This document shows, in pieces, positions 39,170 to 61,200 of a stretch of DNA of 64,000 bases. The notes under the pieces were generated by a model. That model made no database searches, was not told the DNA's origin, and worked only from the letters and a program-made list of their open reading frames with translations. Within the stretch, counting starts at the first letter, position 1. Each line of letters starts with the position of its first letter. This DNA comes from Lacibacter cauensis. Lineage in GTDB: Bacteria; Bacteroidota; Bacteroidia; Chitinophagales; Chitinophagaceae. The stretch covers positions 62,001-126,000 of the forward strand of contig NZ_VLLE01000007.1 of NCBI RefSeq assembly GCF_007830055.1, given 5' to 3'. Both the position numbers and the translations under genes were made by a program.

Positions 39170-39186
39170 CGATTAAAAAACTTTTT

Positions 39187-40941: not shown

Positions 40942-41934
40942 ATGCAATCACTACTCCAAAAATCAATACTGTTTGTTGCATTTGTAGTATGTTACAATAC
41001 ACAACAGGCGCAGGTATTGGTAAAAGATTCATCCTCTTTGCCGAAGCCAGATACAAAGCTGGTGAAGAAAGAAAAAGCATTACACTTTATTGCCATGGGC
41101 GATTGGGGACGTAACGGAGCCGATCATCAAGTACAGGTAGCCAAACAAATGGGTATAACTGCCAATGAAATTGGTTCGATGTTTACCATTGCTACAGGTG
41201 ATAATTTTTACCCCAGTGGTGTGATCAGTGAGTTTGATCCGCTTTGGAAATATTCGTACGAAGATATTTATACCGATTTCCGTTTGCAGTGGGATTGGTA
41301 TCCTGTATTAGGTAATCATGATTACAAAAGCAATCCCGATGCGCAGGTAAACTATTCAACCATCAGCAGACGTTGGAAAATGCCTGCACGGTACTACAGC
41401 AAAATATTTTCAATCAACGGCGATACTACACAACAGGTGTTACTGGTATTTATTGATACCAATCCATTGATTCCTGCGTTCTATAAAAATGCGGAGTATG
41501 GTCCAAATGTAAAAGGGCAGGATACAACCAAACAAAAACGGTGGATGGAAAAACTGCTCAGCAACAAATCGCCCAACATTAAATGGAAAATTGTGGTTGG
41601 TCATCACCCGATGTATTCCGGTGGCGGACGAACAGAAGGGTACGATACCAAAGCCATCCGCAATTCATTAAAGCCAATGTTTGATAAGTATCATGTAGAT
41701 GTTTATCTCTCTGGCCACGAACATAGTTTGCAGCACATGCAAAGTGAAGGCAACATGCATCATATTATTTCCGGTGCAGCGTCGGAAAAAACGCCTGCAC
41801 GTTTAATTGAAAACAGTTTGATGTCTGCTTCTGAGTATGGCTTCTTTGTTTTCTCTGTTACAGGAAATGAATTATTACTGCAAGCAGTGAATGATACAGG
41901 AAAAATTATTTACAGCTACACAATTAAAAAATAA
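40942..41934 (+). CDS. purple-acid-type metallophosphatase, secreted
   Basis: A 330-residue metallophosphoesterase of the small purple acid phosphatase (TRAP/ACP5) type with a signal-like N-terminus (ILFVAFVVCYNTQQAQ). Metal-binding motifs in order: FIAMGDWG, ATGDNFYPSG (with the Tyr that gives the purple colour), VLGNHDY, VVGHHPMYSGG and SGHEHSLQHM. It removes phosphate from monoesters in the periplasm or outside; plant relatives can hydrolyse inositol phosphates. Next to an inositol oxygenase, this suggests removal of phosphate from inositol phosphate or a phospho-glycan, an inference. Its 3' end overlaps the next gene by 44 bases. Confidence 0.88.
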   Translation: MQSLLQKSILFVAFVVCYNTQQAQVLVKDSSSLPKPDTKLVKKEKALHFIAMGDWGRNGADHQVQVAKQMGITANEIGSMFTIATGDNFYPSGVISEFDPLWKYSYEDIYTDFRLQWDWYPVLGNHDYKSNPDAQVNYSTISRRWKMPARYYSKIFSINGDTTQQVLLVFIDTNPLIPAFYKNAEYGPNVKGQDTTKQKRWMEKLLSNKSPNIKWKIVVGHHPMYSGGGRTEGYDTKAIRNSLKPMFDKYHVDVYLSGHEHSLQHMQSEGNMHHIISGAASEKTPARLIENSLMSASEYGFFVFSVTGNELLLQAVNDTGKIIYSYTIKK

Positions 41935-44801: not shown

Positions 44802-44824
44802 TATTATTCATCCTTTAACTTGAA

Positions 44825-46594
44825 ATGACGATGAACAGAAATGATTTTTTGAAAATAGGAGCAATGGCAGCATTAAGTCCGTTGTTTGTAAAGGCATCAG
44901 CAAATGATTTTAGTGCGTCCATTGACACAGAGATGATGAACCACTTACTTGCTGCAAATGATAAAACAGCAGCACAATTAATGGAAACGGTGAAGCCTGG
45001 CAACCTTCGTTTCAGCCGCATGATCGCTTATGATATTGCCGTGCTTACGGCTGCTTATTGTGCAAAAGGATCGGCGTACTATCACCATACAGAAGTGGTA
45101 AGCAAGATCGATTTGCTGGTGAAGTTTTTAGCAAGTGCACAGGCAGAAGATGGAACGGTAAATGTGGGTAATCTGGAATCGCCACCTGATACTGCGTTCC
45201 TTGTTGAGATACTTGGTCCTGCTGCATCCATCCTGCGGAAAGATAACAGCAGCGAATTGAAAGATGTGCAGCAACAGTTAAAACAAATTTTATTAAAAAC
45301 AGGTGAAGGTCTTTCAACAGGTGGTATACACACGCCTAATCACCGTTGGGTGATAAGTGCAGCACTTGCGCAACTCAGTCATTTATATCCCAACAAAAAA
45401 TACAGTAACCGCATCAACGATTGGTTGGGCGAAGGCGTGTTCATTGATGCAGATGGGCATTACCCTGAACGCAGCGGTATTTATTCGGGTGTGGAGAATG
45501 CAGCATTTATAACAATAGCAAGGTTGGCGAACAAGCCTTCGCTGTATGCTCCTGTTCGGAAAAATCTTACCATGTACCAGTACTACATTGAACCGAATGG
45601 CGAATTGGTACGCAACGATTCAAGGAGACAGGATCAGTACGAAGCTGCTGCAAAGCCAAGTACGCTGTTTTATCTGCAGTACCGGTATATGGCTGTTCAT
45701 GAAAAAAGTCAACTCTTCGCTGCTATTTGTAAACAGATCGAAGGAACAAAGGATTTTGAAAAAGACATACTTACCCGTTCGTTGTTTTACTTTTTGGAAG
45801 ATGAAACATTACAGCAACAATTACCAACTGCTGAAGTGTTGCCTGAACGGTACGAAAAATTATTTACAACATCACACCTGCTGCGGATTAAGGAAAAGAA
45901 CACAACCATTACATTGTTTGGCGGAACCGACCAGCCCCTGCTCATTGCATCGGGTCGTTCTAATTCGCCAGATTTCTTTTCGTACAGAAAAGGGGATGCT
46001 ATTTTGAAGTATATGCGGTTGTCGTCGAATTTTTTCAGCATGGGTTATTTCTATAGTGATGGTTTGCGAAAAGAAGGGAACAGCTATGTACTGCGGAAGA
46101 AACTGGAGATACCTTACTATCAACCGTTGCCAAAAGAAAAACGAAAAGCAAATGGCGATTATAAATTGTCGCCGAGTATTGATGATCGTTTCTGGAATAA
46201 AATGGATTTCAGTAACCGTCCGGTGAGTAATGTAAAAACATTGGAAACCATTATCCGTTTAACTGAAACAAACGGAACGGTTGAGCTGGACTTTGAACTG
46301 AAAGGAATGAAGGGCGTACCTGTTACCATTGAATTGTGTTTTAAAGAAGGCGGACAATTAACAGGTGTTGCTGCTGCAGATGCAAACGGCAATAGTTTTC
46401 TGGAACAGGGAACAGGTGAATACCGTTCGGGAAATGACGTGATTTCATTTGGTCCCGGTGCAGTAGCACATAAACAAATCATAAACCTCGAAGGAGAACG
46501 TTACAGTACGCATTTCGGAACATTGCGTACCAAAGGTGAGCATGTGTACATTACCGGTACAACACCATTTAAACACAAACTTATATTTCGTTAA
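44825..46594 (+). CDS. secreted lyase-like protein, family unassigned
   Basis: A 589-residue protein not recognised with certainty. The N-terminus MNRNDFLKIGAMAALSPLFVKAS is an export signal of the Bacteroidota 'DFLK-AA' type. Residues 35-330 are helical repeats with HTPNHRWVISAALAQLSHLYP, FIDADGHYPERSGIYSGVENAAF and VRNDSRRQDQYEAAAKPS, like the (alpha/alpha) toroid of heparinase II/III-type lyases and related PL families. Residues 360-589 are beta-rich (TLFGGTDQPLLIASGRSN, SVELDFELKG-type strands), as in the lyase C-terminal sandwich. Conserved His, Tyr and Arg in NHRW, GHYPERSG and RRQDQYEA are candidate catalytic residues. It probably cleaves an acidic pectic or glucuronan backbone; this is inference. 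Confidence 0.55.
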   Translation: MTMNRNDFLKIGAMAALSPLFVKASANDFSASIDTEMMNHLLAANDKTAAQLMETVKPGNLRFSRMIAYDIAVLTAAYCAKGSAYYHHTEVVSKIDLLVKFLASAQAEDGTVNVGNLESPPDTAFLVEILGPAASILRKDNSSELKDVQQQLKQILLKTGEGLSTGGIHTPNHRWVISAALAQLSHLYPNKKYSNRINDWLGEGVFIDADGHYPERSGIYSGVENAAFITIARLANKPSLYAPVRKNLTMYQYYIEPNGELVRNDSRRQDQYEAAAKPSTLFYLQYRYMAVHEKSQLFAAICKQIEGTKDFEKDILTRSLFYFLEDETLQQQLPTAEVLPERYEKLFTTSHLLRIKEKNTTITLFGGTDQPLLIASGRSNSPDFFSYRKGDAILKYMRLSSNFFSMGYFYSDGLRKEGNSYVLRKKLEIPYYQPLPKEKRKANGDYKLSPSIDDRFWNKMDFSNRPVSNVKTLETIIRLTETNGTVELDFELKGMKGVPVTIELCFKEGGQLTGVAAADANGNSFLEQGTGEYRSGNDVISFGPGAVAHKQIINLEGERYSTHFGTLRTKGEHVYITGTTPFKHKLIFR

Positions 46595-46647
46595 CCAGGT
46601 TGTTAGTTGAAAGCGGTAACAGCTTGCCTTGATTAAGTTGAATAGGA

Positions 46648-48252
46648 ATGAAAAAAACATTTTCCATACTTTTCTGCATACAGTTTTTCTGCTTTGGTTT
46701 ATTCGGGCAGATGTATAAACAGTGGGGCGATCTGGGAAATGGAACTTACGCTAATCCTGTTTTGCCTGCCGACTTTAGCGATCTGGATGTTATTCGTGTG
46801 GGGAATGATTACTATGCTATCTCATCTACAATGCAGTTTTCTCCAGGCATGGTCGTGCTGCATTCTGTTGATCTGGTGAATTGGAAAATCATTGGACATG
46901 TAGTAGACGATCTTACGAAAATAAGTCCGCAGCTCAATTGGGATAAAATGAATCGGTATGGCAGAGCTGTTTGGGCAGGTTCTATCCGCTACTATAAAAA
47001 TAAATTCTGGGTTTACTTTGGTACACCTGACGAAGGTTTTTTTATGAGCTCGGCAACAAATCCTGCGGGGCCTTGGGAGCCACTTCATCATTTATGGAAT
47101 GTATCGGGCTGGGATGATTGTTGTTCTTTTTTAGATGATGATGGGCAACTTTATTTCATTGCAACAAATTTTTCAACTGATCCGAAAAATAAGAAGGAGT
47201 ACAACATTCATCTGTTTAAAATGACAGCGGACGGAAAGCAGCTGATCATGGAATCGGATACGATTCTGTACCAGGCAAAAGGAAGTGAAGCAAACAAGCT
47301 ATATAAGATTAATGGATTGTACTATCATTATTTCAGCCAGGTAAATGAATTAGGACAACGTTACATTATGATGGGACGATCAAAAAATATTCTCGGTCCG
47401 TATGAATACAAGCAGTTGAATAAAGTTGACAGAACGAAAGATAGAGAACCCAACCAGGGAGGATTGATAAAGGTAACTGACGATCAGTGGTATTTTTTAA
47501 CACATCATGGAAGGGGAGATTGGGAAGGAAGACCGGCCAGCCTGTTACCGGTAACATGGATCAATAACTGGCCCATCATTGGCAAGGTTGGGAAAGATAC
47601 CATTGGTGAAATGGTATGGACAGGAAAGAAACCAATCACAGTAAAGACGCAACAGACTATCCAAACAAGCGATGAATTTCAATCTGCAAAACTGAATGTG
47701 CAGTGGGAATGGAATTACCAGCCGAGAGCAGATAAATGGTCGTTAACGGAGCGTAAAGGCTTTTTGCGTTTACATGCATTTACACCATTTGATCCGACGA
47801 ACAAAGAACAACTGTTACTGCGTGCAGGCAATACCATTACACAACGCAGTATGCGGACCAACACAAACCTTGCAACTGTAAAACTTGATATCAGCAATAT
47901 GGTTGATGGGCAGCATACCGGATTAACACATTTTTCTACTGCAGGCTACAGTACAATTGGTATACGAATGAATAATGGACAAAAGTTTTTGGTCTACCAT
48001 GTAAACGGAAAAGATTCTGTCGTTAGGACGATAACACACAAAGATATCTGGCTGCAATCATCGTGGAATATCGACGGCATGAATATCTATTCGTATAGCC
48101 TTGATGGAAAAAAGTTTATTGCGCTCACAAATTCTTCACAGTTAAGATGGGGAAGCTACCGGGGCGACCGCATTGGTATTTATAATTACAATTTACTTGC
48201 TGAGAAAGGTTTTGTTGATGTTGATTATTTCCGGTACAGTTATTCCAAGTAG
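46648..48252 (+). CDS. GH43 glycosidase with C-terminal beta-sandwich
   Basis: A 534-residue secreted GH43 (signal peptide up to LFGQ). The five-bladed beta-propeller has the general base Asp45 in ADFSDLDVIRV (most families have FPDP), a WNVSGWDDCCSFLDDDGQ segment with the pKa-modulating Asp, and the general acid Glu214 in KGSEANKLYKING. Residues from about 345 on form a laminin-like beta-sandwich typical of GH43 arabinofuranosidases/xylosidases. Likely removes alpha-L-arabinofuranosyl or beta-xylosyl side groups from pectin in the periplasm. Subfamily not determined. Fifty-three bases after the lyase-like gene. Confidence 0.88.
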   Translation: MKKTFSILFCIQFFCFGLFGQMYKQWGDLGNGTYANPVLPADFSDLDVIRVGNDYYAISSTMQFSPGMVVLHSVDLVNWKIIGHVVDDLTKISPQLNWDKMNRYGRAVWAGSIRYYKNKFWVYFGTPDEGFFMSSATNPAGPWEPLHHLWNVSGWDDCCSFLDDDGQLYFIATNFSTDPKNKKEYNIHLFKMTADGKQLIMESDTILYQAKGSEANKLYKINGLYYHYFSQVNELGQRYIMMGRSKNILGPYEYKQLNKVDRTKDREPNQGGLIKVTDDQWYFLTHHGRGDWEGRPASLLPVTWINNWPIIGKVGKDTIGEMVWTGKKPITVKTQQTIQTSDEFQSAKLNVQWEWNYQPRADKWSLTERKGFLRLHAFTPFDPTNKEQLLLRAGNTITQRSMRTNTNLATVKLDISNMVDGQHTGLTHFSTAGYSTIGIRMNNGQKFLVYHVNGKDSVVRTITHKDIWLQSSWNIDGMNIYSYSLDGKKFIALTNSSQLRWGSYRGDRIGIYNYNLLAEKGFVDVDYFRYSYSK

Positions 48253-48311
48253 TTGTATCAACCGTAGTGCGCAAGTAGAAATAAAATTCAGTTAACTGTA
48301 AATATATTTTA

Positions 48312-49928
48312 GTGATGGATATGAAGAAGATTGTTTTATTCGCAGCGTTGATTTTTACAGCACAGTTTGTTTTCTCTCAGCAAAGGGAATTCATTATTAC
48401 TGCTTTTGCTGCAAAGGCCGATAGCAAAACCAACAATGCAAAATTTATTCAGGCAGCAATTGATAAAGCGTCTGCTGCAGGTGGTGGCAAAGTAATTGTA
48501 CCGAAAGGAAAATTTGTAACCGGACCAATTGTATTAAAGAGTGGAGTGGAGCTTCATTTGCAGCAAGGCGCAGTGTTACAGGGGAGTACGAATCGAATAG
48601 ATTATGGTAAAGAAACTGCACAGGCGCTTATTAGTGCAGCGCATCAAAACAATGTTGCAATAACCGGCAAAGGTGAAATTGATGGACGAGGTGCGGAACT
48701 GGTGGAAGACGTGTACCGTTTGTTGAAAGCTGGAAAGATTACGGATGCAGAATGGAAAACAAAACGGCCAACAGAGTTCAATCGCCCCAAACTTGTTTTG
48801 TTTGAATTGTGCAATAATGTTCGTGTTACAGGAGTAACCATTAAAAACGGTTCGGGCTGGGTGCAGGATTATATCCGTTGCAACAATGTAATTATCGACA
48901 GCATAACAGTTAACAGTACCAGTTACTGGAACAACGATGGTATTGATATCACCAATTCAAAAAATGTGTCCATCACCAACTGCTATGTAAATGCAGCCGA
49001 TGATGCCGTGTGTTTAAAATCAGAAGGTAAGGAACCGGATAGTTGTGTTAATATCTACATTGCCAACTGCAAACTTCGCAGCAGTGCAAACGCTGTTAAA
49101 TTCGGCACAGCATCGAAAGGTGGATTTCGTAATGTAGTTATAAAAGATATTGAAGTGTGTGATACCTATCGCTCAGCCATTGCACTGGAAGCAGTTGATG
49201 GCGGGTTTTTAGAAAATGTAGAAGTACAAAATATTAAAGCAACCAATACAGGCAATGCCATCTTTATTAAACTTGGTCACAGAAACAAAGACGAACGTTA
49301 CAGTGTGGTGCGCAACATTCACGTGAAAGATATGTATGTGGAAGTGCCTGCAACAAAACCTGACAAGGGTTATAATATGGAAGGACCATTGTTGCGTTAT
49401 CCTCCGGGTGTTGTTCCTGCCAAGCAAGGTGAAGTGCAAAGTGTTTCTCCCTGGAATCATACATTGAACGACAGCACGGCCATCATTTACCGGCACAATG
49501 TATTTCCATCTTCTATTTCAGGATTGCCCGGTCATGATGTGGAATCGGTCACATTGGAGAATATTGAAATTGTGTACGAAGGCGGAGCCGATAAACAGCG
49601 GGCTTATTTTCCCTGGCAAGCATTAACAAAGATCACCGAAGCAGAAACTGCTTACCCGGAGTTTTCTATGTTTGGCGAATTGCCTGCATGGGGTTTGTAT
49701 GTGCGGCATGCAAAAAATATTCAATTGAAAAATGTAATGCTTCGTTATAAACAGGAAGATTTTCGTGTGCCTTGTATTTTTGATGATGTGAAAGAATTGC
49801 AGATACAGCAACTCTCAATTCCGCAAAGCAAAGATGTTCCGGTGCTGTTGTTGAACAATGTAAAAGGTTACAGCTTCAAAGAACTTCGTTTGCCTAAACC
49901 GGAAAGTGAAGCAATTATTGTACAATAG
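48312..49928 (+). CDS. GH28 polygalacturonase-type hydrolase (first copy)
   Basis: A 538-residue right-handed parallel beta-helix with signal peptide (FAALIFTAQFVFS). The GH28 catalytic Asps are visible: YWNNDGIDI near residue 210 and NAADDAVCLK near 230. The usual GHG triad is not seen; the corresponding strand reads KFGTASKGGF, as in the exo-acting or rhamnogalacturonan-specific branches. It hydrolyses alpha-1,4 bonds in homogalacturonan or RG-I backbone; exact bond undetermined. C-terminal 120 residues continue the helix (YEGGADKQRAYFPWQALT). Follows GH43 by 59 bases. Confidence 0.88.
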   Translation: MMDMKKIVLFAALIFTAQFVFSQQREFIITAFAAKADSKTNNAKFIQAAIDKASAAGGGKVIVPKGKFVTGPIVLKSGVELHLQQGAVLQGSTNRIDYGKETAQALISAAHQNNVAITGKGEIDGRGAELVEDVYRLLKAGKITDAEWKTKRPTEFNRPKLVLFELCNNVRVTGVTIKNGSGWVQDYIRCNNVIIDSITVNSTSYWNNDGIDITNSKNVSITNCYVNAADDAVCLKSEGKEPDSCVNIYIANCKLRSSANAVKFGTASKGGFRNVVIKDIEVCDTYRSAIALEAVDGGFLENVEVQNIKATNTGNAIFIKLGHRNKDERYSVVRNIHVKDMYVEVPATKPDKGYNMEGPLLRYPPGVVPAKQGEVQSVSPWNHTLNDSTAIIYRHNVFPSSISGLPGHDVESVTLENIEIVYEGGADKQRAYFPWQALTKITEAETAYPEFSMFGELPAWGLYVRHAKNIQLKNVMLRYKQEDFRVPCIFDDVKELQIQQLSIPQSKDVPVLLLNNVKGYSFKELRLPKPESEAIIVQ

Positions 49929-49939
49929 AATTACAGGTT

Positions 49940-52267
49940 ATGAAGGGAGTGACACAACAAAAGATGAACTGTAGCAATACAGCTGGCTACATAAAAAATA
50001 TTTTCAGTTTATTGTCAGTAATCGTACTGATGCAATTTGCAACAGCACAAAACCTAATGAAATATGTGCAACCGCTGGCAGGCACAGCATCGGCAACAAC
50101 CATTAGCGCTGTTAAACACAGCGAAGCAGGCGGAACAGAAACAAACGCCAACACCATTCCTGCAGTAACATTACCGTTTGCAATGACACAATGGACAGCG
50201 CAAACAAAACAAACCGAGAACAAATGTGTGCCACCTTATTTTTATAAAGATTCCTTGCTCACGGGATTTCGTGGATCTCATTGGTTGAGTGGTTCCTGCA
50301 CGCAGGATTACGGAAGCTTTACAGTAATGCCCGTTGCTGGCACATTAAAAACAGCAGCGAAAGAGTATGCCGTTCGCTTTTCGCATAACGATGAAATTAC
50401 TTCGCCTGCTTATTATAAAGTGAAAGCTGGTGCAGTTACAACAGAGATCACTTCCACACTTCGTTGCGGACTGTTGCAGTTTACAATGCAGCAGGATGAT
50501 AGTTTGTACGTGTTGGTTACACCCAACAGCGATTATGCAAAAGGGTTTGTAAAAGTGGATGCAGCGAAAGGAGAAATATGGGGTTACAATCCGGCGCATC
50601 GTATTTACCAGGGTTGGGGCGAACCAACAGGTTTCAGCGGATGGTTTTATATCAAGATTGAAAAGCGATTTACAAAGCGTGGCACATTTGCAGGTGCTGA
50701 AGTTTTTACAAATGATAGTGTACTGCAAAAGAAAGAGGCAGGTGCGTTTGCTGGTTTCAAGTTGAAGAAAGGTGAGCAGTTATTATTACGCATCGGTACA
50801 TCGTTCAGCAGCCTTGCAGCAGCAAAGAAAAATTTAGCAGCAGAAGTTGGCTCAAAAAGGTTTGATGCTGTTCGTGCTGCTTCAACACAGCAATGGGAGA
50901 AAGTATTGGCACAGGTGCAGGTGCAAACAAACAATGAAAAAGACAAGCGTGTATTTTATACAGCCATGTATCATTCCATGCAGCATCCACGTTTGTTCAG
51001 CGATGTGGATGGCACTTATCCTTCGTTTGCAGGTAATGCCCAGTTGAAGAAAATGAATGGGAACTATTACGATGATTTTTCGATGTGGGATATTTATCGT
51101 GCACAATTGCCATTGCTGGAAATATTGAATCCAACGATGACGAATGATTTTGTGCGGTCGTTGATCTTAAAAGGGGAGCAGGGTGGATGGTTGCCGATCT
51201 TTCCTTGCTGGAACAGTTATACTGCTGCCATGATCGGCGATCATGTAACTGCATTTATTGCGTCGGCATACAACAAAGGTATTCGTAATTACAATGTACA
51301 GTCTGCATACCAATTGATGCGTAATAATGCATTTGAAACACCTGCCAGTTTTGCGGAGTATAAAAACGGAATGGGACGAAGAGCATTAACATCGTACCTG
51401 CAATATGGTTATGTGCCAATGGAAGATAGTGTGCAGGAAGCCTTTCACAAGAAAGAACAGGTGAGCCGGACATTAGAATATGCGTTTGATGATTATGCAT
51501 TAAGTGTTGTGGCAAAGGGTTTGAACAAAACAGAAGATCACAAAAAATTACAGCAACGTTCATTCAATTATCAAAACGTTTTTGATGCATCGGTTGGTAT
51601 GATGCGTGGTCGTTTTGCAATAGGAAAATGGGTTGAACCTTTTCGTGCTGATATTCGTGAACCTTATATTACCGAAGGTACACCAAGACAATATACTTTT
51701 TATGTGCCGCAGGATATTCCGGGTTTGGCAAAGCTGATGGGCGGAACAATGTCATTTGAAAATGCATTGGATAGTTTGTTCAGGAAGAATGAATACTGGC
51801 ATGGTAACGAACCCGGTCACCAGATTCCCTTCTCGTACAACTACACTTCATCGCCTTACAAAACGCAGAGAGCAGTAAGAAAGATATTGGCAGAAGAATA
51901 CAGCGATGGGCCCGGTGGATTAAGCGGTAATGATGATGCAGGACAAATGAGTGCATGGTATGTGTTTGCAGCAATGGGTTTTTATCCTGTCGATCCTGTT
52001 TCAAACAACTATTTATTATGTTCTCCTTTGTTTGATGTAATAACTATGCGTTTGCAGGGAAATAAGACATTTACACTGCAAACACATAAAGCAAGTGCGC
52101 AATCGCTTTACATTGATCAAGTAAAATGGAATGGGAAACTGTACAGTAAAAATTATATCACTTACCAAATGATCATGCAGGGCGGCAAGCTGGAATTGTG
52201 GTTAACAGATAAGCCAACACAATGGGGAGCATTACCTGCAAACAGACCAACAGGTTTAACTCAATAA
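49940..52267 (+). CDS. GH92 alpha-mannosidase family protein
   Basis: A 775-residue GH92 protein. Start at 49940 gives a signal-like segment (FSLLSVIVLMQFATAQ); a second Met at 49964 is also possible. The beta-sandwich (KYVQPLAGTASATTISAVKHSE) is followed by the (alpha/alpha)6 domain with DDFSMWDIYRAQLPLLEI, the proton donor Glu624 in HGNEPGHQIPF and the Asp665-Asp666 pair in GGLSGNDDAGQMSAWYVF. It is a Ca-dependent, inverting exo-alpha-mannosidase. In this pectin-like locus its target is unclear; GH92 members also act on mannose-1-phosphate linkages, which fits the phosphatase next door (inference). Confidence 0.9.
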   Translation: MKGVTQQKMNCSNTAGYIKNIFSLLSVIVLMQFATAQNLMKYVQPLAGTASATTISAVKHSEAGGTETNANTIPAVTLPFAMTQWTAQTKQTENKCVPPYFYKDSLLTGFRGSHWLSGSCTQDYGSFTVMPVAGTLKTAAKEYAVRFSHNDEITSPAYYKVKAGAVTTEITSTLRCGLLQFTMQQDDSLYVLVTPNSDYAKGFVKVDAAKGEIWGYNPAHRIYQGWGEPTGFSGWFYIKIEKRFTKRGTFAGAEVFTNDSVLQKKEAGAFAGFKLKKGEQLLLRIGTSFSSLAAAKKNLAAEVGSKRFDAVRAASTQQWEKVLAQVQVQTNNEKDKRVFYTAMYHSMQHPRLFSDVDGTYPSFAGNAQLKKMNGNYYDDFSMWDIYRAQLPLLEILNPTMTNDFVRSLILKGEQGGWLPIFPCWNSYTAAMIGDHVTAFIASAYNKGIRNYNVQSAYQLMRNNAFETPASFAEYKNGMGRRALTSYLQYGYVPMEDSVQEAFHKKEQVSRTLEYAFDDYALSVVAKGLNKTEDHKKLQQRSFNYQNVFDASVGMMRGRFAIGKWVEPFRADIREPYITEGTPRQYTFYVPQDIPGLAKLMGGTMSFENALDSLFRKNEYWHGNEPGHQIPFSYNYTSSPYKTQRAVRKILAEEYSDGPGGLSGNDDAGQMSAWYVFAAMGFYPVDPVSNNYLLCSPLFDVITMRLQGNKTFTLQTHKASAQSLYIDQVKWNGKLYSKNYITYQMIMQGGKLELWLTDKPTQWGALPANRPTGLTQ

Positions 52268-52277
52268 AGGAATAGTC

Positions 52278-53738
52278 ATGTCTACATTCAAAACATATTT
52301 CATTGTTGTGCTTTCGTTCATTTGTTTTTCCGCAGCAGCACAGCAAGGCAACCGACAGAAAGTATTTGTGGTAAAAGATTTTGGTGCAGTGGGCGATGGT
52401 AAAACAGATGATGCCGTTGCAATACAAAAAGCAATTGATGCAGCACATGCAGCAGGTGGTGGTACGGTGTTGTTTACTGCGCCGTTTGTGTACAAGGCAA
52501 GTCCCATTACTGTCAAATCAAATATTGAACTGCATTTGCAGGGAGGTTCAAAACTGCTTGCCAATCCTGATGAAAAGGTTTATACCAAAAGTGCCTTCCG
52601 AACTAATCCCGGCGAAGGAACAATCTGGATCGGAGGAGAGAACGTAGAAAATTTTACCATCAGCGGTAACGGAGAAATTGATGGAAATGGTATTTCATTC
52701 ATGGGTGCAGAGCTGGAAGATTCGTATGAGTTGAAACCGTTTAATGTGCTTGATCCACGTCCGCATGTATTAACCATCATTGGCGGAAAGAACATACGCA
52801 TACGTGATGTGAAGATCGGCAACTCTGCTTATTGGACGGTTCACTTGATTGGTTGTGATGATGTGGTGATCAGCGGTATTACTTTGCTCAACAGTTTAAA
52901 AGTGCGTAACAGTGATGGTATTGATCTTGATCATAGTAAAAATGTACGCATCAGCGATTGTTATATTGAAAGCGGTGATGATTGTATTTGTTTAAAGAAC
53001 CGCAGAGAGTATGAAGAGTTTGGTGTGTGTGAAAACATTACTGTTACCAACTGCACCATGACATCCAGAAGCTGTGCCATCAAAATCGGTTCGGAGAATA
53101 TGGATACCATCCGCCAGGTGCTGATCGATAATTGCATCATCAAAAAAAGTAATCGTGGGGTTGGTATTCAGCACAGGGATGAAGGTGTGGTGAGTGATGT
53201 CATCTTCAGCAATATGATCATTGAAGGACATTTATTCAGCGATGTATGGTGGGGCAAAGCCGAACCCATTTACATTACTGCATACCGCAGGGCAAAGATC
53301 AATCACAAAGATGCCAACTGGCGTTTTCCCAAAGGAGCAACAGAAGGAAAAGTGGGCGTGGTGAAGAATATTTATTTCAGCAACATTAAATGCTCAAGCG
53401 AAAACGGTGTGTATGTAAGCGCCGAATCGCAGGATAAAATTCAAAATATCGTGTTTGATAATGTGGATGTGTTCATCAACAAAATAACGAACATACAAGG
53501 TGGCATCTACGATCGTCGCCCGGCAAATGTAGAAGGCTTTGTAAAAGGAACCACTGCCGGTTTTTATTTTGATACCGTGAAGAAAATTGTACTGCGGAAT
53601 TGTTCGGTAGAGTGGGGCGATAAGAAAGAAGCTTATTTTTCAAATGCTATCCGCAGCATCAATGTCGGTTCGTTGGAACGGTTCGGCTTCAGCGGCACCT
53701 CCGCTTTTCCCAAAACAGCGCCTGCCATCAAACAATGA
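52278..53738 (+). CDS. GH28 polygalacturonase-type hydrolase (second copy)
   Basis: A 486-residue beta-helix enzyme with signal peptide (VVLSFICFSAAAQ). Catalytic motifs RNSDGIDLDHSKNV near residue 211 and ESGDDCICLKN near 231 contain the three Asp. As in the other GH28 here, the GHG segment is replaced (AIKIGSENMDTIRQ). Sequence identity to the first copy is low, so they are not a recent duplication but probably different specificities such as exo-polygalacturonase and rhamnogalacturonan hydrolase. Only 10 bases after GH92. Confidence 0.9.
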   Translation: MSTFKTYFIVVLSFICFSAAAQQGNRQKVFVVKDFGAVGDGKTDDAVAIQKAIDAAHAAGGGTVLFTAPFVYKASPITVKSNIELHLQGGSKLLANPDEKVYTKSAFRTNPGEGTIWIGGENVENFTISGNGEIDGNGISFMGAELEDSYELKPFNVLDPRPHVLTIIGGKNIRIRDVKIGNSAYWTVHLIGCDDVVISGITLLNSLKVRNSDGIDLDHSKNVRISDCYIESGDDCICLKNRREYEEFGVCENITVTNCTMTSRSCAIKIGSENMDTIRQVLIDNCIIKKSNRGVGIQHRDEGVVSDVIFSNMIIEGHLFSDVWWGKAEPIYITAYRRAKINHKDANWRFPKGATEGKVGVVKNIYFSNIKCSSENGVYVSAESQDKIQNIVFDNVDVFINKITNIQGGIYDRRPANVEGFVKGTTAGFYFDTVKKIVLRNCSVEWGDKKEAYFSNAIRSINVGSLERFGFSGTSAFPKTAPAIKQ

Positions 53739-53816
53739 TGCACATCATCTACACAATAGGTAAATAGTGGGCTTTGTAAGCCGAAGAGCAATAACTTTAC
53801 CCCCGTTCAAATTTTT

Positions 53817-53842
53817 GCCCGTTCGACCAAGGTCATCCGGGC
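53817..53842. promoter_or_regulatory. symmetrical hairpin upstream of GH2-GH53 gene
   Basis: GCCCG-(ttc)-GACC-aa-GGTC-(atc)-CGGGC: two perfect stem segments around a 3x3 internal loop, 22 bases before the ATG at 53865. No T-tail, so a leader structure or protein-binding RNA element is as likely as attenuation. A second small stem GGCTT-tgt-AAGCC lies at 53770-53782. Confidence 0.4.
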
Positions 53843-53864
53843 GGGCTTAGCAAAACAATCAAAA

Positions 53865-56800
53865 ATGATGAGGGTAATTTTTCTTGCCGCACTTATTGTA
53901 TGTAGTTCGTTCAACGCTTCTGCACAACGCAAACGAGTTAACATCGATGAAAACTGGAAGTTTGCTTTTGGTCATGCCGCAAATCCTGAGAAGGATTTTA
54001 ACTATGGTCTCAAAACTATTTTCTCCAAATCGGGAGCAGCAGCCGGCACAGCCATCGATCCGAAGTTTAACGACAGCAGCTGGCGCACACTTAATCTGCC
54101 GCATGATTGGGCCGTTGAATTGCCTTTTGCTTATGTAGATAATTTCGATGTAGAGAGTCACGGGTACAAACCTGTTGGTGGTTTGTTTCCTGCAACAAGT
54201 ATCGGTTGGTACCGCAAACAATTCAAACTGGAAAAAGCAGACTCGGGCAGAAGATTTCAATTACAGTTCGATGGTATTTTTCGTGATGCCAATGTATGGA
54301 TCAACGGATTTTATCTCGGTAATAACAAGAGCGGTTATGTGGGTGTAAATTATGATGTCACTGATTTTCTCAACTTCGACCGTAACAACGTTATTGTTGT
54401 TCGTGTGGATGCCACACAATACGAAGGCTGGTTTTACGAAGGTGCAGGTATCTATCGCCATGTATGGTTAAACAGTTATCTTTCATCTCATATTACAACA
54501 GATGGCGTGTTTGCTTATGCAAACATCAACGGGAGTAAAGCAACATTGAATGTGGAGACAAGCATCATTAATGAATACGGTAGTTCAGGTAGTTATTCTG
54601 TATCAACATATCTCACCGACAGAGCAGGAAATAAAATTACATCATCAAAAGAACAGGCGCTTGCATTGAATGTGCTGGAAGAAAAAACGTTGAAGCAAAC
54701 AATTGCTGTTAACAATCCAACAATATGGTCGTTGGAGAATCCTTACCTCTATCGTGTAGTAGTGGAGTTAAAACAGAATGGAAAAATCATCGATCAGCAA
54801 AAACTTCGTTTTGGTTTCCGTTCAATCGAAATAAAACCGAATGGTATTTTCCTTAATGGTAAACACATTAAAATTTACGGAACAAATAATCACCAGGATC
54901 ATGCAGGTGTAGGAAGTGCCTTGCCCGATTACTTACAATACTATCGCATTGGTCTATTGAAAGAAATGGGTGTGAATGCTTACCGCACCAGTCACAATGC
55001 ACCAACACCTGAGTTGCTTGATGCATGCGATAGTTTGGGTATGCTGGTAATGGATGAACAACGTTTGCTCAACAGCGGTGCTGAATACATGGATCAGTTT
55101 GAGCGTTTGGTAAAGCGTGACCGCAGCCGTACTTCTGTTTTTATGTGGAGCATCGGTAACGAAGAAGGCTGGATTCATACCAACTCTTTCGGTAAGCGTA
55201 TTGCAGAATCATTTATTGCCAAACAAAAACAACTCGATCCTACACGAACATGCACCTATGCTGCTGATGTGGCGAATGTTTATAAAGGGGTGAATGAAGT
55301 GATTCCTGTACGCAGTTTCAATTATCGTCAGTTTGCTGTGGCCGATTATCATAAAGATCATCCCGATCAACCGATCATTGGTACAGAAATGGGCAGTACG
55401 GTTACCACACGTGGTGCATTGGAAAAAGATTCTATCCGTGCTTATGTGCCCGACCAGGATATTACTGCTCCGTGGTGGGCCAGCCGTGCAGAAGAATGGT
55501 GGAAGCTGGCAGCAAGAAACGATTTTTGGTTAGGTGGTTTTGTCTGGACAGGATTTGATTATCGTGGTGAACCAACGCCGTACAAATGGCCGAACATCAA
55601 TTCGCATTTTGGAGTGATGGATGTTTGCGGCTTTCCGAAAAATATTTACTACTACTACCAAAGCTGGTGGACGGATAAAGATGTGCTGCACATTTCGCCA
55701 CACTGGAACCATCGTAACGAGTGGGGGCTACCGAAAAAGCAAATTGATGTGTGGGTGAACAGTAATGCAGACAATGTAGAGCTGTTCCTGAATGGAAAAA
55801 GTTTAGGGAAGAAGGATATGCCCCGCAACGGTCACCTGCAATGGAAAGTGGAATTTGAACCAGGCAAGCTGGAAGCAGTTGCTTATAAAAATGGACGAAA
55901 ACTGACAAGTAAAGTTGAAACAACAGGTGTACCAGTTGAAGTAGTATTAACGCCGTATAAAACAACGATGCTTGCTGATGGCAAAGATGTAACCGTGATG
56001 AATGTTTCTGTTGTTGATCGTGAAGGAAGAGAAGTACCCGATGCCAACAACATGATTTATTTTAAAGTGGAGGGCGATGCGAAAATCATTGGTGTAGGTA
56101 ACGGTGATCCCAGCAGTCATGAAGCAGATAAATGTGCAGATGGTTTGTGGCAACGCAGTTTGTTCAATGGTAAATGCCAGGTGATTATTCAGTCGGGAAC
56201 AAAGCCGGGTATTTTTAAAGTAGAAGCAAGTGCAAAGAATTTGTACACCGGTTCAACAGATGTGATTACAGTTGATCCGGTAAAAGCAGCAACGATTACC
56301 ATTGATGAAAAGTATAAACTGAAAGGTGAAGCTGCAAAGCCAAGAGTTGTTGATCAGATGATAGGCGCTGATATTTCGTTCTTACCCGAACTGGAAGCAA
56401 AGGGAATGAAATTCTCGGATAAAGGTGTAACCAAAGATGCTATTGAGATCATCAAAGAGCATGGCATCAACTATGTGCGTCTGCGTATCTTTCACGATCC
56501 TGCGCAGGATAGCGGCTATTCACCCAAGAAAGGATTTTGCGATCTCAATTACACAAAGCAAATGGCGAAGCGTGTAAAAGCTGCCGGATTAAAACTGTTG
56601 CTTGATTTTCATTACAGCGATTACTGGGCTGATCCCGGTAAGCAATACAAACCTGCTGCATGGAAAGGTCTTTCGTTTGAAGAGTTGAAAAAAGCCTTGT
56701 ACGATTATACCAAGATGGTGATGGAGGAATTGAAAGCGCAAAATACGTTGCCCGATATGGTGCAGGTGGGCAACGAAATCAATCATGGTATTGTTTGGCC

Positions 56801-57263
56801 CGATGGTAATGTGAGCAATATGGATCAACTGGCGCAACTACTTTGTGCAGGAACAGCTGCAGTAAAAGCGGTTGAACCGAAAACACAAATGATGTTGCAT
56901 GTAGCACTCGGGGGACAAAATAACGAATCAGTTTTCTTTATCGATAACATGCTTGCACGTGGAGTGCATTTTGATGTCATCGGGCAATCATATTATCCCA
57001 AGTGGCATGGCACATTAGCCGACCTGGAGAATAATCTCAATGATCTTGTTCGCCGTTATAACAAAGATGTAATTGTAGTTGAATACTCAGCATTGAAAGA
57101 AGAAGTGAACAAAATCGCTTTTGGGTTACCGAATGGAAAAGGAAAGGGCACTTGCATTTGGGAACCACTCAGCACCTGGGAAAAGTTTTTTGATAACGAT
57201 GGTAAATCGAATCAGTATCTGCCGTTGTATGATGAGATGAGTAAAAAGTATCTGAATAAATAA
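53865..57263 (+). CDS. bifunctional GH2-GH53 fusion: beta-galactosidase plus endo-galactanase
   Basis: A 1132-residue secreted protein with signal peptide (VIFLAALIVCSSFNASA). Residues about 25-790 are GH2: sugar-binding domain with ENWKFAFGHAANPEKDF, Ig-like domain, then the barrel with acid/base Glu433 in WSIGNEEG and nucleophile Glu508 in IGTEMGS, and a C-terminal Ig-like domain (YKTTMLADGKDVTVMNVSV). Residues about 826-1132 are GH53: GADISFLPELEAKGMKF, FHYSDYWADPGKQ, catalytic Glu971 in VGNEINHG and Glu1073 in VVEYSALK. GH53 cleaves beta-1,4-galactan internally; GH2 would trim galactose. Both catalytic pairs are complete, so the fusion should be active. It is the last gene of the locus, after a 126-base gap with a hairpin. 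Confidence 0.93.
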   Translation: MMRVIFLAALIVCSSFNASAQRKRVNIDENWKFAFGHAANPEKDFNYGLKTIFSKSGAAAGTAIDPKFNDSSWRTLNLPHDWAVELPFAYVDNFDVESHGYKPVGGLFPATSIGWYRKQFKLEKADSGRRFQLQFDGIFRDANVWINGFYLGNNKSGYVGVNYDVTDFLNFDRNNVIVVRVDATQYEGWFYEGAGIYRHVWLNSYLSSHITTDGVFAYANINGSKATLNVETSIINEYGSSGSYSVSTYLTDRAGNKITSSKEQALALNVLEEKTLKQTIAVNNPTIWSLENPYLYRVVVELKQNGKIIDQQKLRFGFRSIEIKPNGIFLNGKHIKIYGTNNHQDHAGVGSALPDYLQYYRIGLLKEMGVNAYRTSHNAPTPELLDACDSLGMLVMDEQRLLNSGAEYMDQFERLVKRDRSRTSVFMWSIGNEEGWIHTNSFGKRIAESFIAKQKQLDPTRTCTYAADVANVYKGVNEVIPVRSFNYRQFAVADYHKDHPDQPIIGTEMGSTVTTRGALEKDSIRAYVPDQDITAPWWASRAEEWWKLAARNDFWLGGFVWTGFDYRGEPTPYKWPNINSHFGVMDVCGFPKNIYYYYQSWWTDKDVLHISPHWNHRNEWGLPKKQIDVWVNSNADNVELFLNGKSLGKKDMPRNGHLQWKVEFEPGKLEAVAYKNGRKLTSKVETTGVPVEVVLTPYKTTMLADGKDVTVMNVSVVDREGREVPDANNMIYFKVEGDAKIIGVGNGDPSSHEADKCADGLWQRSLFNGKCQVIIQSGTKPGIFKVEASAKNLYTGSTDVITVDPVKAATITIDEKYKLKGEAAKPRVVDQMIGADISFLPELEAKGMKFSDKGVTKDAIEIIKEHGINYVRLRIFHDPAQDSGYSPKKGFCDLNYTKQMAKRVKAAGLKLLLDFHYSDYWADPGKQYKPAAWKGLSFEELKKALYDYTKMVMEELKAQNTLPDMVQVGNEINHGIVWPDGNVSNMDQLAQLLCAGTAAVKAVEPKTQMMLHVALGGQNNESVFFIDNMLARGVHFDVIGQSYYPKWHGTLADLENNLNDLVRRYNKDVIVVEYSALKEEVNKIAFGLPNGKGKGTCIWEPLSTWEKFFDNDGKSNQYLPLYDEMSKKYLNK

Positions 57264-57276
57264 ACAGCAGTTTCAA

Positions 57277-57312
57277 AATAAAAACGGGCAACAATTGTTG
57301 CCCGTTTTTATT
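57277..57312. terminator. bidirectional terminator, 36-base perfect palindrome
   Basis: Perfect 18-base inverted repeat (AATAAAAACGGGCAACAA and complement) with no loop, containing an A/T-flanked GGGCAACAA core; between the convergent GH2-GH53 and GntR genes. Confidence 0.9.
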
Positions 57313-57326
57313 TCATCCAAAATTTG

Positions 57327-58034
57327 TTATTCAAAAATTCTTGCAAAGTGATTCTCTAAGTGGTTGCGCATACCATTGCGGAATTGTTCTGGTGTACCAT
57401 GTTCCAGTATCTCCACCAGTTCTTTATGCGATACGAATGTTTTCAACGCTGTTTGCTTTTTTAATAAACCACTGTTGTGCACATAATCAAATACAGGTAA
57501 TAACATTTTCTGGAATTTCTTCATCGTTTCATTGCCTGTTATTTCGTAAAGCTTTCCATGAAATGCAATTTCGTGTTGTACATTGAACAAATGATCCTGT
57601 GCAGCAGGTGGTTCGTTAGCAACGATCTGTTTTAACTCCTTTATATCTTCTTTGGTTACACGATGAAACAGGAAATCGGCCATACCAATTTCAAGTACCA
57701 GTCGTATTTCAAACACTTCTTTTAATGTTTCAGGCGAAAGAATATGCGGGTTCATACTCTTACCCAGATTGCCGAACAGATCCGGACTGGTAATAACGGC
57801 ACCCTTCTTTTTCTTCGACTCAATCAGCCCCATCAAACGCAAACGCAGCAACGCTTCACGTATTACCGTACGACTTACACCCAGCGCTTCGGCCAGTTCA
57901 ATTTCTTTCGGAATACTATCGCCCACCTTTAGTTTCTGCTGTTGCAGCAACTCCACCAGGTTGGCTTCTACCTTATCCACCAAACTGCTGGTTTCAATGG
58001 TTTTTAAATGTCCGTTCAAAAGAGTGTTCGTCAT
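57327..58034 (-). CDS. GntR/FadR-type regulator with FCD domain
   Basis: A 235-residue FadR-subgroup GntR regulator. Winged HTH: QQKLKVGDSIPKEIELAEALGVSRTVIREALLRLRLMGLIES. The C-terminal FCD helical domain (residues about 95-230) has EIRLVLEIGMADFLFHRV and the His-containing HEIAFHGKLYEITGN, HKELVEILEHG and RNHLENHF helices that bind metal and a carboxylate or sugar-acid ligand. It is divergent from the SusC gene and two inverted repeats in the gap match GT-N3-AC-type FadR sites. FCD regulators such as NanR sense sialic acid or sugar acids, which fits the neighbouring aldolase. Ligand is inferred. Confidence 0.9.
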   Translation of the reverse strand: MTNTLLNGHLKTIETSSLVDKVEANLVELLQQQKLKVGDSIPKEIELAEALGVSRTVIREALLRLRLMGLIESKKKKGAVITSPDLFGNLGKSMNPHILSPETLKEVFEIRLVLEIGMADFLFHRVTKEDIKELKQIVANEPPAAQDHLFNVQHEIAFHGKLYEITGNETMKKFQKMLLPVFDYVHNSGLLKKQTALKTFVSHKELVEILEHGTPEQFRNGMRNHLENHFARIFE

Positions 58035-58035
58035 A

Positions 58036-58050
58036 TTATGTAATACTTAA
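58036..58050. promoter_or_regulatory. GntR operator candidate 1 (TTATGTAATACTTAA)
   Basis: Inverted repeat TTATGT-N3-ACTTAA with one mismatch, with the GT-N3-AC core; directly at the regulator start codon, so binding would repress its own gene. Confidence 0.55.
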
Positions 58051-58164
58051 TTATTCAAAATTAAGAAAATTGGGCAGTTCACTTCGATTTTTCGATTGAT
58101 TATTAATTACTTAATCTAATCTAAAAAAATATTTGTTGGAAAGAAAGAACTTTCTTTAACTTTA

Positions 58165-58179
58165 TTATGTCATACATAA
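58165..58179. promoter_or_regulatory. GntR operator candidate 2 (TTATGTCATACATAA)
   Basis: Perfect inverted repeat TTATGT-cat-ACATAA, same core and spacing as candidate 1, 27 bases before the SusC ATG. Confidence 0.6.
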
Positions 58180-58205
58180 TACAAAATTAAAACAAAACTT
58201 GCTGT

Positions 58206-61200
58206 ATGAAAGCATTTTTAAAGATGGGATTGCTGCTGAACTTCCTGCTGCTCACCTTCATGGCGGGAGCACAATCCATCAAAATTTCCGGGCAGGTGTT
58301 ATCGAAAGAGGATAACACAGCTATTGCCGGTGTATCTGTTGTGGTAAAAGGAAAAAGCAGCGGAACACAAACCGATGCCGAGGGCCGTTTTACGATTGAC
58401 GCTGCCATCGGCGATGTACTTGTTTTTACTTCTGTAGGTTTTACAACGCAGGAGGTAAAAATTGAAAGTGCAGGTAGTATAACCATTACCCTGCAGGCAT
58501 CTGTTTCTAAAATGGATGAAGTTGTAGTGGTGGGTTATGGTACACAAAAGAAATCGAAGATTACCGGTTCGGTTAGTAAACTTGATCCGAAGGTTTTGCA
58601 AACCGGTGTGCGTTCGAACCCGGCTTCTGCATTGGCAGGAACAATTCCGGGTTTACGTGTGCAGCAAACATCCGGTCGCCCGGGTGCGGTACCCAACATT
58701 GTACTGCGTGGTGGTACCAATTACAATGGTACCGGTTCGCCGTTAATTCTTGTTGATGGTTTGGTGCGTGCAGGTTTCTTTGAAGTAAACCAGGAAGATG
58801 TTGAGTCGATTGAAGTATTGAAAGATGCATCGGCAACAGCGATCTATGGTGCACGTGCAAACAATGGTGTAATTCTCATCACCACCAAAAAGGGGAAAGC
58901 TGGTACTTCAAAAATTACAGTAGGTTCTAAAGTGGGTGTAAACCGATTGAATCTGCCTTTCGAATTTTTGAATGCAAGAGATTATCTCTACTACTCAAGA
59001 AATGCCGTAAAAACGTCGGGTGTTTATGATCCTTCACGTTTATCGCAATTAACTGCTGCGGGTCCGTTTGGTACAGGTAATCGTTTCCTCGATGGAAGTG
59101 GTAATGTCATTGATGGTAATGTAAACTCGTTAGGTGTTTGGAGTACAATGAAACTCGATAATACCAACCGGAATAAACTCAACGATGGTTGGGAAACAAT
59201 GATCGATCCGATTAACGGAACCGATACACTTATCTTCCGCAACTTTAATTATAAAGATTATGCATTGCGTGATTACAGTTTAACACAGGATCACAATGTA
59301 TCGATGAGTGGCGGTAACGATAAAGGAAAATATTATGCAGGCTTTGGTATGTACGATGAAAAAGGTTTGCCGATTAATACGTTCTACCGCCGTTACACAT
59401 TTGTGTTGAACAGCGAATACAAGATCCGTCCCTGGTTAACCTCTACCTCCAACTTAAACTTTGCCAATGCAAAATGGCGTGATCCTGTTACCAACTCAGA
59501 AGGTAACTACCTGTCTCGTTCATTAGGTGCACCTCCAACCATGCGTGGCTGGAACGAAAAAGGAGAGTTGCTGGTTGGTCGTGATGTGGGCGATGGTAAC
59601 CCGTTGGTGAACGATGCAAAATTTATCCGTAACAATAACAGCGATAAGTTTACCATTTCTCAAGGATTTAAAATTGATCTGCTGAAAAATCTTTACTTAA
59701 AAACAAGTGCTAACCTGTTTTACGATGAAGGTTTTTACGAAAGCTTCAATAAAGATTATTTGCAAAGTCCGGGTAACATCAACCGTACACGTTCCTCTTC
59801 TGCATCGTTTGGCCGCAGCTTAAGTCAAACTTATAATGCAGTAATTGATTATAATACAAGTTTCGGTGATCATGATCTTGACTTGATGGCCGGTTCGGAG
59901 TACTATGATATTTATTCGTATGGTGTTTCTGCATCGGGTTCGCAGGCGCCGTCAGACGATTTTCTCGATCTGCAATATGTTCGTCGTGACGCAACAACGC
60001 AACCTTCTGTTGATTCGTACCACGAACGTCAGCGTATTCTTTCATTCTTTGGAAGAGCAACCTACGATTACAAAGAAAAATATTTAATTACAGGAACACT
60101 TCGTAGTGATGGTTACTCAAAACTCATCAACAACCGTTGGGGTACATTCCCGGGTGTGTCTGTTGGTTGGAACCTGCACAAAGAAGATTTCTTTGATGTA
60201 AGATGGATCAATGCACTCAAGCTGCGTGCAAGCTATGGCCAAAATGGTAACGTAAGCGGCATCAGTGCGTATGGTTTGCAAGGTGGTTACAGTGTAAACC
60301 GTTACAACACATCTACCGGTTATCTTTTCTCTACACCTCCTTTCCCTGATCTGTTGTGGGAGCGTTCATCAACTTACGAAGGCGGTGTTGAAGGTAATAT
60401 CTTAGGTAAAATTGATTTCAATATTGCTTACTACAAGCGTATTACCTCCAACAAAATTTCCAGCTTTAACCTGCCTGCAACTTCCGGTATTACCAGTTTA
60501 ACAACCAACAACGGTAGCATGCAGAACCAGGGTGTGGAAGTTGATTTGAATTATGCAATTGTTCGTAAAAAAGATTTCCAGGTTGATGTAGCTGCAAACT
60601 TTGCTTATAATGCGAACAAAGTATTAAAGCTTCCAAACAATGGTTTGGAAAATAACAGGCAAGGAGGTTTTCAGGTTTGGGATCCTTCACAAAAGAAACT
60701 CATCTGGGTTGCCGGTACACAGCAAGGACAAGACCCTAATGTTGCTTATGCTTACGTTGCAGAAGGGTTGTACCGTACACAAGCCGAACTGGATGCGCAC
60801 GGCAACCGTGTTGATTTGAATGGTGCAAAAATTTTATTGGGCACAGCCAAATGGGCAGCGCTTACGCCTGCACAACGTGCCAGCTATTACAACATTGCGT
60901 TGGGTGATGTACGTTGGAGAGATGTTGACCAGAACGATACAATCGATTTCCGTGATCGTGTGTACATGGGCCGTACCGTTCCACGTTTCACCGGTGGTTT
61001 CTCTGCCGCTGCACGTTGGAAAGGATTATCTGTTAGTGCACGATTTGATTATGCGTTTGGCTTTGTGGCATACGATGGTCCACGTGCATGGTTCATGGGT
61101 AATGCACAAGGTACATTCAACACCATTAAAGATGTGTACGATACTTGGACGCCAACCAATACCAATGCAAAATTCCCTACTTGTTATTGGGCCGATCAGT

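Follow-up and report, generated by a model that had tools for sequence, protein, structure and literature searches.

We describe a gene that joins two glycoside hydrolase (GH) families on one chain, found in a 64,000-nucleotide stretch of the Lacibacter cauensis genome (contig NZ_VLLE01000007.1, positions 62,001 to 126,000; hereafter the window, whose own numbering is used throughout). The gene, at 53865-57263 on the forward strand, is a single ATG-started open reading frame (ORF) of 1132 codons without an internal stop. Its product comprises a complete GalA-type GH2 enzyme with its own immunoglobulin-like (Ig-like) C5 domain, followed by a GH53 barrel, with all four catalytic glutamates present. 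The original prediction, made from the DNA letters, had placed GH2 and GH53 on one uninterrupted frame, and both the ORF and a Pfam domain search bear this out. The fusion probably acts as a bifunctional enzyme, most likely in the periplasm, and completes the breakdown of beta-1,4-galacto-oligosaccharides derived from the galactan side chains of pectin.

Domain architecture and distribution of the fusion

All Pfam domains of the fusion protein score above their curated cut-offs. A putative signal peptide of about residues 1-21 (53865-53927), which ends in SASAQ and has no lipobox cysteine at the cleavage site as judged by eye and by a pattern count over the fusions, precedes the GH2 sugar-binding domain (Glyco_hydro_2_N, residues 70-202; 54072-54470) and the GH2 Ig-like domain (Glyco_hydro_2, residues 214-319; 54504-54821). 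The GH2 TIM barrel follows at about residues 321-600 (54825-55664), as placed by Pfam and the Foldseek fold with its end set by eye, and then DUF4982 (residues 625-679; 55737-55901) and the GH2_C5 Ig-like domain (C5; residues 694-797; 55944-56255). The NCBIfam model NF041462, 'beta-galactosidase GalA', matches residues 28-797 over positions 1-760 of 763 with 1043.6 bits, against a cut-off of 900, and in phmmer searches of PDB chains residues 63-800 align with BuGH2A (5t98) and other GH2 beta-galactosidases. The last 306 residues align in the same searches with GH53 galactanases, best with 7osk. The Pfam GH53 profile PF07745 matches residues 833-1075 (E 4.9e-92; 309 bits against a cut-off of 24), and the barrel as a whole, delimited by Pfam, phmmer, tree, structure model and Foldseek, spans residues 833-1132 (56361-57260).

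In the phmmer alignments, Glu433 (55161-55163; aligned to 5t98, 8q2h and 4ypj) and Glu508 (55386-55388) sit on glutamates of solved GH2 beta-galactosidases, and Glu971 (56775-56777) and Glu1073 (57081-57083) on those of solved GH53 enzymes, at strands 4 and 7. From family knowledge we take the first of each pair to be the acid/base and the second the nucleophile. The gene coordinates and the four residues had thus been named correctly beforehand. The Ig-like domain had also been described as linking the two enzymes; it does lie between them, but Pfam, NCBIfam, the C5 tree and unfused relatives assign it to the GH2 enzyme itself. Unfused GalA proteins end right after C5 (L214 and others), and in L214 residues 32-802 of 805 cover model positions 1-763, so C5 belongs to the GH2 enzyme. 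Residues 798-832 (56256-56360) form the true linker, as delimited by the AlphaFold2 model and by length comparison.

We considered whether the fusion could be a sequencing or assembly artefact merging two neighbouring genes, as GH2 and GH53 are known as two genes of one Bacteroides locus. We searched 394 genomes from the window's family with a profile built from the fused GH53. In 72 of these, a match of the fused GH53's own clade (clade B, defined below) lay in an open frame 1000 or more residues long, counted by hand, and all 72 frames were read. GH2 occupies the same frame in 70, so that the in-frame fusion occurs in 70 of 394 family genomes; by a hand count of genus codes these span 32 of 101 genera, and they include 7 of the 10 genomes of the window's own genus, the window's among them. 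The search for the same architecture in other genomes that had been proposed therefore succeeded, and its orthologues exclude the error between residues 790 and 826 that had been named as the refuting case. Genome G201 (L210:222-3712), where the GH2 and GH53 halves lie in two overlapping frames that meet inside C5, holds either a natural split or a sequencing slip and lends the artefact some colour; for the window's gene, we give that explanation next to no credence.

Some of the 70 are incomplete: the front is cut by a contig end in G129 and G210, and the GH53 match stops at position 247 in G325. Beyond the 72, three further fusions are cut by contig ends (G271, G344 and G019). The remaining two of the 72, G030 and G124, have GH95 in place of GH2. 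GH95-GH53 fusions, with a clade-B GH53 at the C-terminus of a GH95 enzyme, lie at L201:92-3382 on the reverse strand and L202:443-3712 on the forward strand, and this GH53 clade thus pairs with more than one kind of exo-enzyme. Flavobacterium, Hydrotalea, Parafilimonas and metagenome-assembled genomes (MAGs) of other Bacteroidota are also represented among the named loci, which come from the best 80 of 590 relatives. In a phylum sample of 395 genomes, eight matches showed the full clade-B pattern with E below 1e-140; of these, four, including the window's, lie in frames of over 1100 residues.

Both halves of the fusion are well conserved. Among 86 non-redundant fusions of at least 1085 residues, the window's included, E433, E434, W921, E971 and W1099 are invariant, and E508 and E1073 are each retained in 85, with an X in one. 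Identity to the window's protein is 59-91% (median 71) for GH2 and 60-95% (median 74) for GH53. Nei-Gojobori comparison with five same-genus copies gave dN/dS values of 0.055-0.069 for GH2, 0.043-0.093 for C5, 0.063-0.137 for the linker and 0.028-0.047 for GH53; dS exceeded 1 in 9 of 20 cells and is near saturation, and these ratios are best read as 'strongly constrained'. Each half is under strong purifying selection, and neither is apparently decaying.

The linker has diverged in sequence (10-86% identity to the window's, median 46) and is 34-36 residues long in 74 of the 86 fusions. An AlphaFold2 run on the window's protein with 46 relatives gave a full-length model with a mean predicted local distance difference test (pLDDT) score of 85.4 and a predicted template modelling (pTM) score of 0.85, in which the linker is predicted to be ordered (block pLDDT about 88-92). 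An ordered linker of near-fixed length would fit a defined geometry, and tells nothing of the direction in which the active sites point, which had been proposed as possibly facing each other. It also bears on the possibility that tethering serves only to co-express the halves in a 1:1 ratio, each acting independently with no kinetic gain. That this GH53 clade also occurs without GH2, either bare or as C5-GH53, and with GH95, and that unfused GalA enzymes exist, fits such a view, as does Mucilaginibacter sp. SP1R1, where three consecutive genes separately encode a canonical GH53, a clade-B GH53 and a distant GH2 (L134:8754-13274). The predicted order and the near-constant length, kept despite a median identity of less than half, argue against it. 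We rate co-expression alone at somewhat below an even chance; it is compatible with a periplasmic role, and the two readings share part of their probability.

A GH53 clade with a shortened seventh loop

In a tree of 110 GH53 domains, 85 rows form clade B (36 fused, 24 C5-GH53, 18 bare and 7 with other extensions), separated from 25 canonical GH53 rows with a support of 99. The clade is marked by its spacing, which we counted over 191 GH53 rows, and separately over the 86 fusions, as the residues between the nucleophile glutamate and the conserved tryptophan after strand 8. The spacing is 25 in 84 of the 86 fusions (23 in one and 19 in one). Every one of the 18 bare and the 24 C5-GH53 rows likewise has 25, the 7 rows with other extensions have 25-26, and 68 canonical rows range from 32 to 58. 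Counted from alignments, it is 28 in BT4668 of Bacteroides thetaiotaomicron (6gp5) and 59 in 7osk. In the window's protein, the model and the alignment place the shortened seventh beta/alpha loop, alpha7 and beta8 in the 25 residues between Glu1073 and Trp1099 (57084-57158). Identity between the fused GH53 and the canonical rows compared is about 30-51%. Trp921 (56625-56627), by our own mapping the equivalent of the -2 subsite tryptophan of the Ignisphaera galactanase, is a tryptophan in 191 of 191 rows. The fused GH53 thus belongs to a distinct clade with a shortened seventh loop.

As the PF07745 alignment covers only profile positions 2-245 of 340, we considered a truncated GH53. This was rejected: the GH53 part modelled alone by AlphaFold2 forms a complete eight-strand barrel (pLDDT 95.1, pTM 0.93), and the short ending is typical of the clade. 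In Foldseek searches, this model matched 7osk with an E value of 1.3e-29 and a TM score of 0.88, the first 13 rows being 7osk, 6gp5 and other GH53 structures, and the whole model matched the GH2 beta-galactosidases 7cwd, 4ypj, 8q2h and 5t98. Many Bacteroidota possess two GH53 types, and in a profile search one of these looks truncated. As a separate observation, a 658-residue rumen Bacteroidales protein (L142:8936-10909) carries two GH53 stretches in one chain (544 bits).

PMC8447715 ties the seventh and eighth loops of GH53 enzymes to a calcium site or a disulphide, and an extended loop to the -3/-4 subsites; it also relates shorter grooves to shorter products, and describes BT4668 as likewise lacking the long seventh and eighth loops joined in this way. 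BT4668, whose loop is the next shortest, cleaves galactotriose to galactobiose and galactose, according to PMC5238430. The long loops with a calcium site or disulphide, a usual but non-defining feature of solved GH53 enzymes, are absent at a spacing of 25, and the shortened seventh loop leaves no room for either. From the short loop, the reported link between groove and product, and the products of BT4668, we infer that the fused GH53 has a short groove and releases short products.

Cellular location, genomic setting and proposed function

Secretion signals were read by a crude sequence pattern in 88 fusions and in 32 canonical GH53 rows from fusion loci. A signal of the signal peptidase I type was found in 78 of the 88 fusions, a lipobox in 6, another type in 3 and none in 1; each of the six lipobox-pattern fusions shows a later A/G-Q site by eye. 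The canonical rows comprised 23 with a lipobox, 5 with another type and 4 of the signal peptidase I type, and among the nine without a lipobox several show a cysteine by eye and one resembles a fragment. An earlier version of the pattern had given 57 signal peptidase I signals, 6 lipoboxes and 1 without a signal among 64 fusions, and, for 33 neighbouring canonical rows, 14 lipoproteins and 19 signal peptidase I signals, several of the 19 with a cysteine by eye. A Pfam scan of three fusions found no type IX sorting domain. Non-lipoprotein signals and the lack of this domain in the scanned fusions point to the periplasm as the likely place in which the fusion works, and a soluble periplasmic enzyme could presumably not start on a polymer outside the cell.

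The gene had been predicted to encode a self-contained galactan degrader, and the census of GH53 genes upholds this in part. Of 38 fetched loci, 20 have a canonical GH53 upstream on the same strand, 18 of these within 540 bp, and at least two PF07745 matches are present in 54 of the 70 fusion genomes by hand count. The other 16 have only one; 11 of them are at least 95% complete, and they include the window's genome, where a search of the whole genome found the fusion as the sole GH53 match and no second one. In this genome the fusion may therefore stand alone. An extracellular or surface enzyme whose GH53 cuts the polymer outside the cell, whose GH2 trims on the spot, and which needs no other galactanase would explain these single-GH53 genomes and the apparent activity of both halves, as judged from their sequences. 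The signals of most fusions, the absence of a sorting domain, the second GH53 in most genomes and the short groove suggested by the loop all run counter to such a role, which we judge improbable.

The gene neighbourhood varies between relatives, in which SusC, SusD and SSF genes were identified by BLAST to those of the window. In the window, the fusion is the last gene of a same-strand row, with a GntR regulator behind it on the opposite strand; ORF reading and Pfam place genes for an SSF symporter, a 589-residue protein, GH43, GH28, GH92 and GH28 upstream of it on the forward strand (43167-53738). A scan of 53600-58300 for promoters and terminators gave nothing usable, promoter-like sites being fewer than in shuffled sequence. 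Within the same genus, L059 (G213) keeps the window's gene order, L050 (G292) has GH92, GH28, UxuA and the fusion with a second GH53 elsewhere in the genome, and in L044 and L051 the fusion stands behind SusC-like and canonical GH53 genes. In L035, a typical locus, the order is SusD, SusE, a second SusE, canonical GH53, fusion, galactokinase and SSF symporter, and L034 resembles it with SusC in front. The set typical of a Bacteroides galactan polysaccharide utilisation locus (PUL), namely SusC/SusD, a surface GH53 and a periplasmic GH2 in one locus, is thus present in L034/L035 and L044 and absent from the window. The same enzyme thus serves both galactan and pectin loci, depending on the genome.

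Three further genes of the window's region deserve mention. The 589-residue protein (44825-46594), which has no Pfam, NCBIfam or PDB match, also stands beside GH28/GH92 in L050 and L059 and is a candidate pectin-locus enzyme. A protein related to heparan-alpha-glucosaminide N-acetyltransferase (8tu9, E 9.2e-22) is encoded at 41891-43147, within the sugar-degradation locus, and a myo-inositol oxygenase gene (35168-36043) directly precedes a SusC/SusD pair (36128-40860).

Both the activities and the location of the fusion are inferred, and we propose the following sequence of events. In many relatives, the polymer would first be cut by a separate GH53, mostly a lipoprotein, and SusC/D import of galacto-oligosaccharides would precede the action of the fusion. 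Its short-groove GH53 could then split these oligosaccharides internally to galactobiose- and galactose-sized pieces, each internal cut exposing a fresh non-reducing end at which the tethered GH2 of the GalA type would release galactose. The freed galactose would pass to a sugar symporter and galactokinase. In the window's genome, which has no other GH53 and a pectin locus of GH28, GH92 and GH43, the fusion probably acts by trimming the short stubs of galactan that imported pectic fragments carry.

Several observations weigh against a periplasmic galacto-oligosaccharide enzyme. The signals were assigned by pattern only, with 6 lipobox, 3 other and 1 without a signal among the fusions, and 4 non-lipoprotein and 5 neither among the canonical GH53 rows; a Marinilabiliaceae fusion outside the six (L143:7475-10906) resembles a true lipoprotein by eye, which would also suit a surface degrader. 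No canonical GH53 was found in the fetched stretch of 18 of the 38 loci, and for two loci of the same genus, L057 and L047, the stretch seen has no galactan or pectin setting. The Pfam GH53 profile has no match to the last quarter of the domain. The galactanase and beta-galactosidase activities of all fusion members are predicted only, and for GalA and GalB of Xanthomonas, PMC5958218 reports that no activity could be detected in the host.

The lack of detectable activity of Xanthomonas GalA means that a galactosidase activity of the fused GH2 is not assured, and it raises the possibility that one half is not a galactan enzyme, the GalA-type GH2 or the clade-B GH53 having turned to another beta-linked galactoside or pectic side chain. 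The distance of the fused GH53 from canonical rows, the GH95 fusions and the GH28, GH92 and GH43 genes in the window, in place of a galactan PUL, would agree with a changed substrate. Conservation of the catalytic and -2 subsite residues, folds that match galactanases and beta-galactosidases, and the galactan-PUL context with galactokinase in a relative speak for galactan, and we hold a changed substrate to be unlikely.

Origin of the fusion and comparison with known systems

Two dozen relatives consist of a signal, C5, linker and GH53 without the GH2 catalytic part. In quick tree searches with moderate support values, and with few columns for C5, all 24 of these C5-GH53 rows form one group in the C5 tree (99), placed among the fused C5 domains (80-92), and fused plus C5-GH53 rows as one clade were not rejected (p 0.968). 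Seven long-branched GH2-only rows fell inside the fused group of the free C5 tree, and a tree that kept them outside this group had a higher likelihood. In the GH53 tree, with two contig-cut rows set aside, fused and C5-GH53 rows form one clade (94), and the 36 fused rows alone as a clade were mildly rejected (p 0.030). The GH2 tree groups 37 fused with only 2 unfused rows (39 rows, support 100). We suggest a single fusion, after which the GH2 catalytic part was removed once or twice, leaving C5 as a scar. Counting against a simple history, the C5-GH53 rows fall into two groups in the GH53 tree, as opposed to one in the C5 tree; holding them together there was not clearly rejected (approximately unbiased test, p 0.07).

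A Rosetta-stone pattern of neighbouring genes in unfused relatives was weak: a GH2 gene lay no more than 3 kb away in 2 of the 18 bare clade-B GH53 loci, 2 of the 24 C5-GH53 loci and 1 of the 7 other loci, some of which are on short contigs. C5-GH53 genes had been expected in pectin loci, and nine neighbours were scanned for those lying around 9500-10900 in L101 and L114 (Mucilaginibacter), L120 (a Bacteroidetes MAG) and L124 (Lentimicrobium); in place of sugar genes, the nine comprised peptidases, a permease, a DNA ligase, an endonuclease, a GMP synthase, a collagen-repeat protein and two without a match.

More tentatively, and with rather less than even confidence, we propose that clade-B GH53 forms a functionally distinct kind of galactanase that acts on oligosaccharides through a short groove. 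It would have evolved as the C-terminal partner of exo-enzymes (GalA-type GH2 in many Bacteroidota, GH95 in a few), with an ordered, near-constant linker handing fresh chain ends to the exo site, and with later removal of the GH2 part in some lineages (Mucilaginibacter, Hymenobacter and Bacteroidales relatives) that left the C5 scar. Pectic galactan occurs commonly in plants and is a source of prebiotics, and the fusion would be a widespread natural enzyme that joins internal cutting and galactose release on one chain across a near-fixed linker. With its unfused relatives as natural controls, one could ask directly whether oligosaccharides are broken down faster when two glycosidases are tethered.

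The literature searched holds no description of a GH2-GH53 fusion, though subscription papers, CAZy and PULDB, which lay outside the search, may list the architecture; the single phrase match, in PMC4730625, concerns two separate genes. The GH2 part resembles the NF041462 GalA family, a name that probably stems from Xanthomonas GalA, in matching nearly the whole model, and differs in that the model ends with C5 and here GH53 follows. Multi-catalytic fusions, in which two catalytic domains for one polymer share one chain, are familiar among carbohydrate enzymes; our protein is like these in general and differs by its GH2-GH53 pair. With solved GH53 galactanases (7osk, 1r8l/2ccr, 6gp5 and the fungal 1fhl/1hjs) it shares the fold, both catalytic glutamates and the -2 subsite tryptophan, and unlike them has the shortened seventh loop with a spacing of 25.

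The closest known counterpart is the galactan PUL BT4667-BT4673 of B. thetaiotaomicron, which has the same pair of enzyme families, SusC/SusD/SusE-like proteins and a periplasmic GH2, as described in PMC8002723 and PMC5238430. These also place BT4667 (GH2) in the periplasm and BT4668 (GH53) outside, which agrees with the earlier statement that Bacteroides encodes the two activities in separate genes. A simple fusion of BT4667 and BT4668 orthologues is unsupported for GH53 by bit scores: BT4668 structures give the fused GH53 152-153 bits, fewer than the 230 of the archaeal 7osk, and one canonical stand-alone GH53 from the family scores 269 against BT4668. BT4668, itself left out of the tree, is thus probably not an orthologue of the fused GH53, and the two enzyme families that B. 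thetaiotaomicron keeps in two separate genes are here on one chain.

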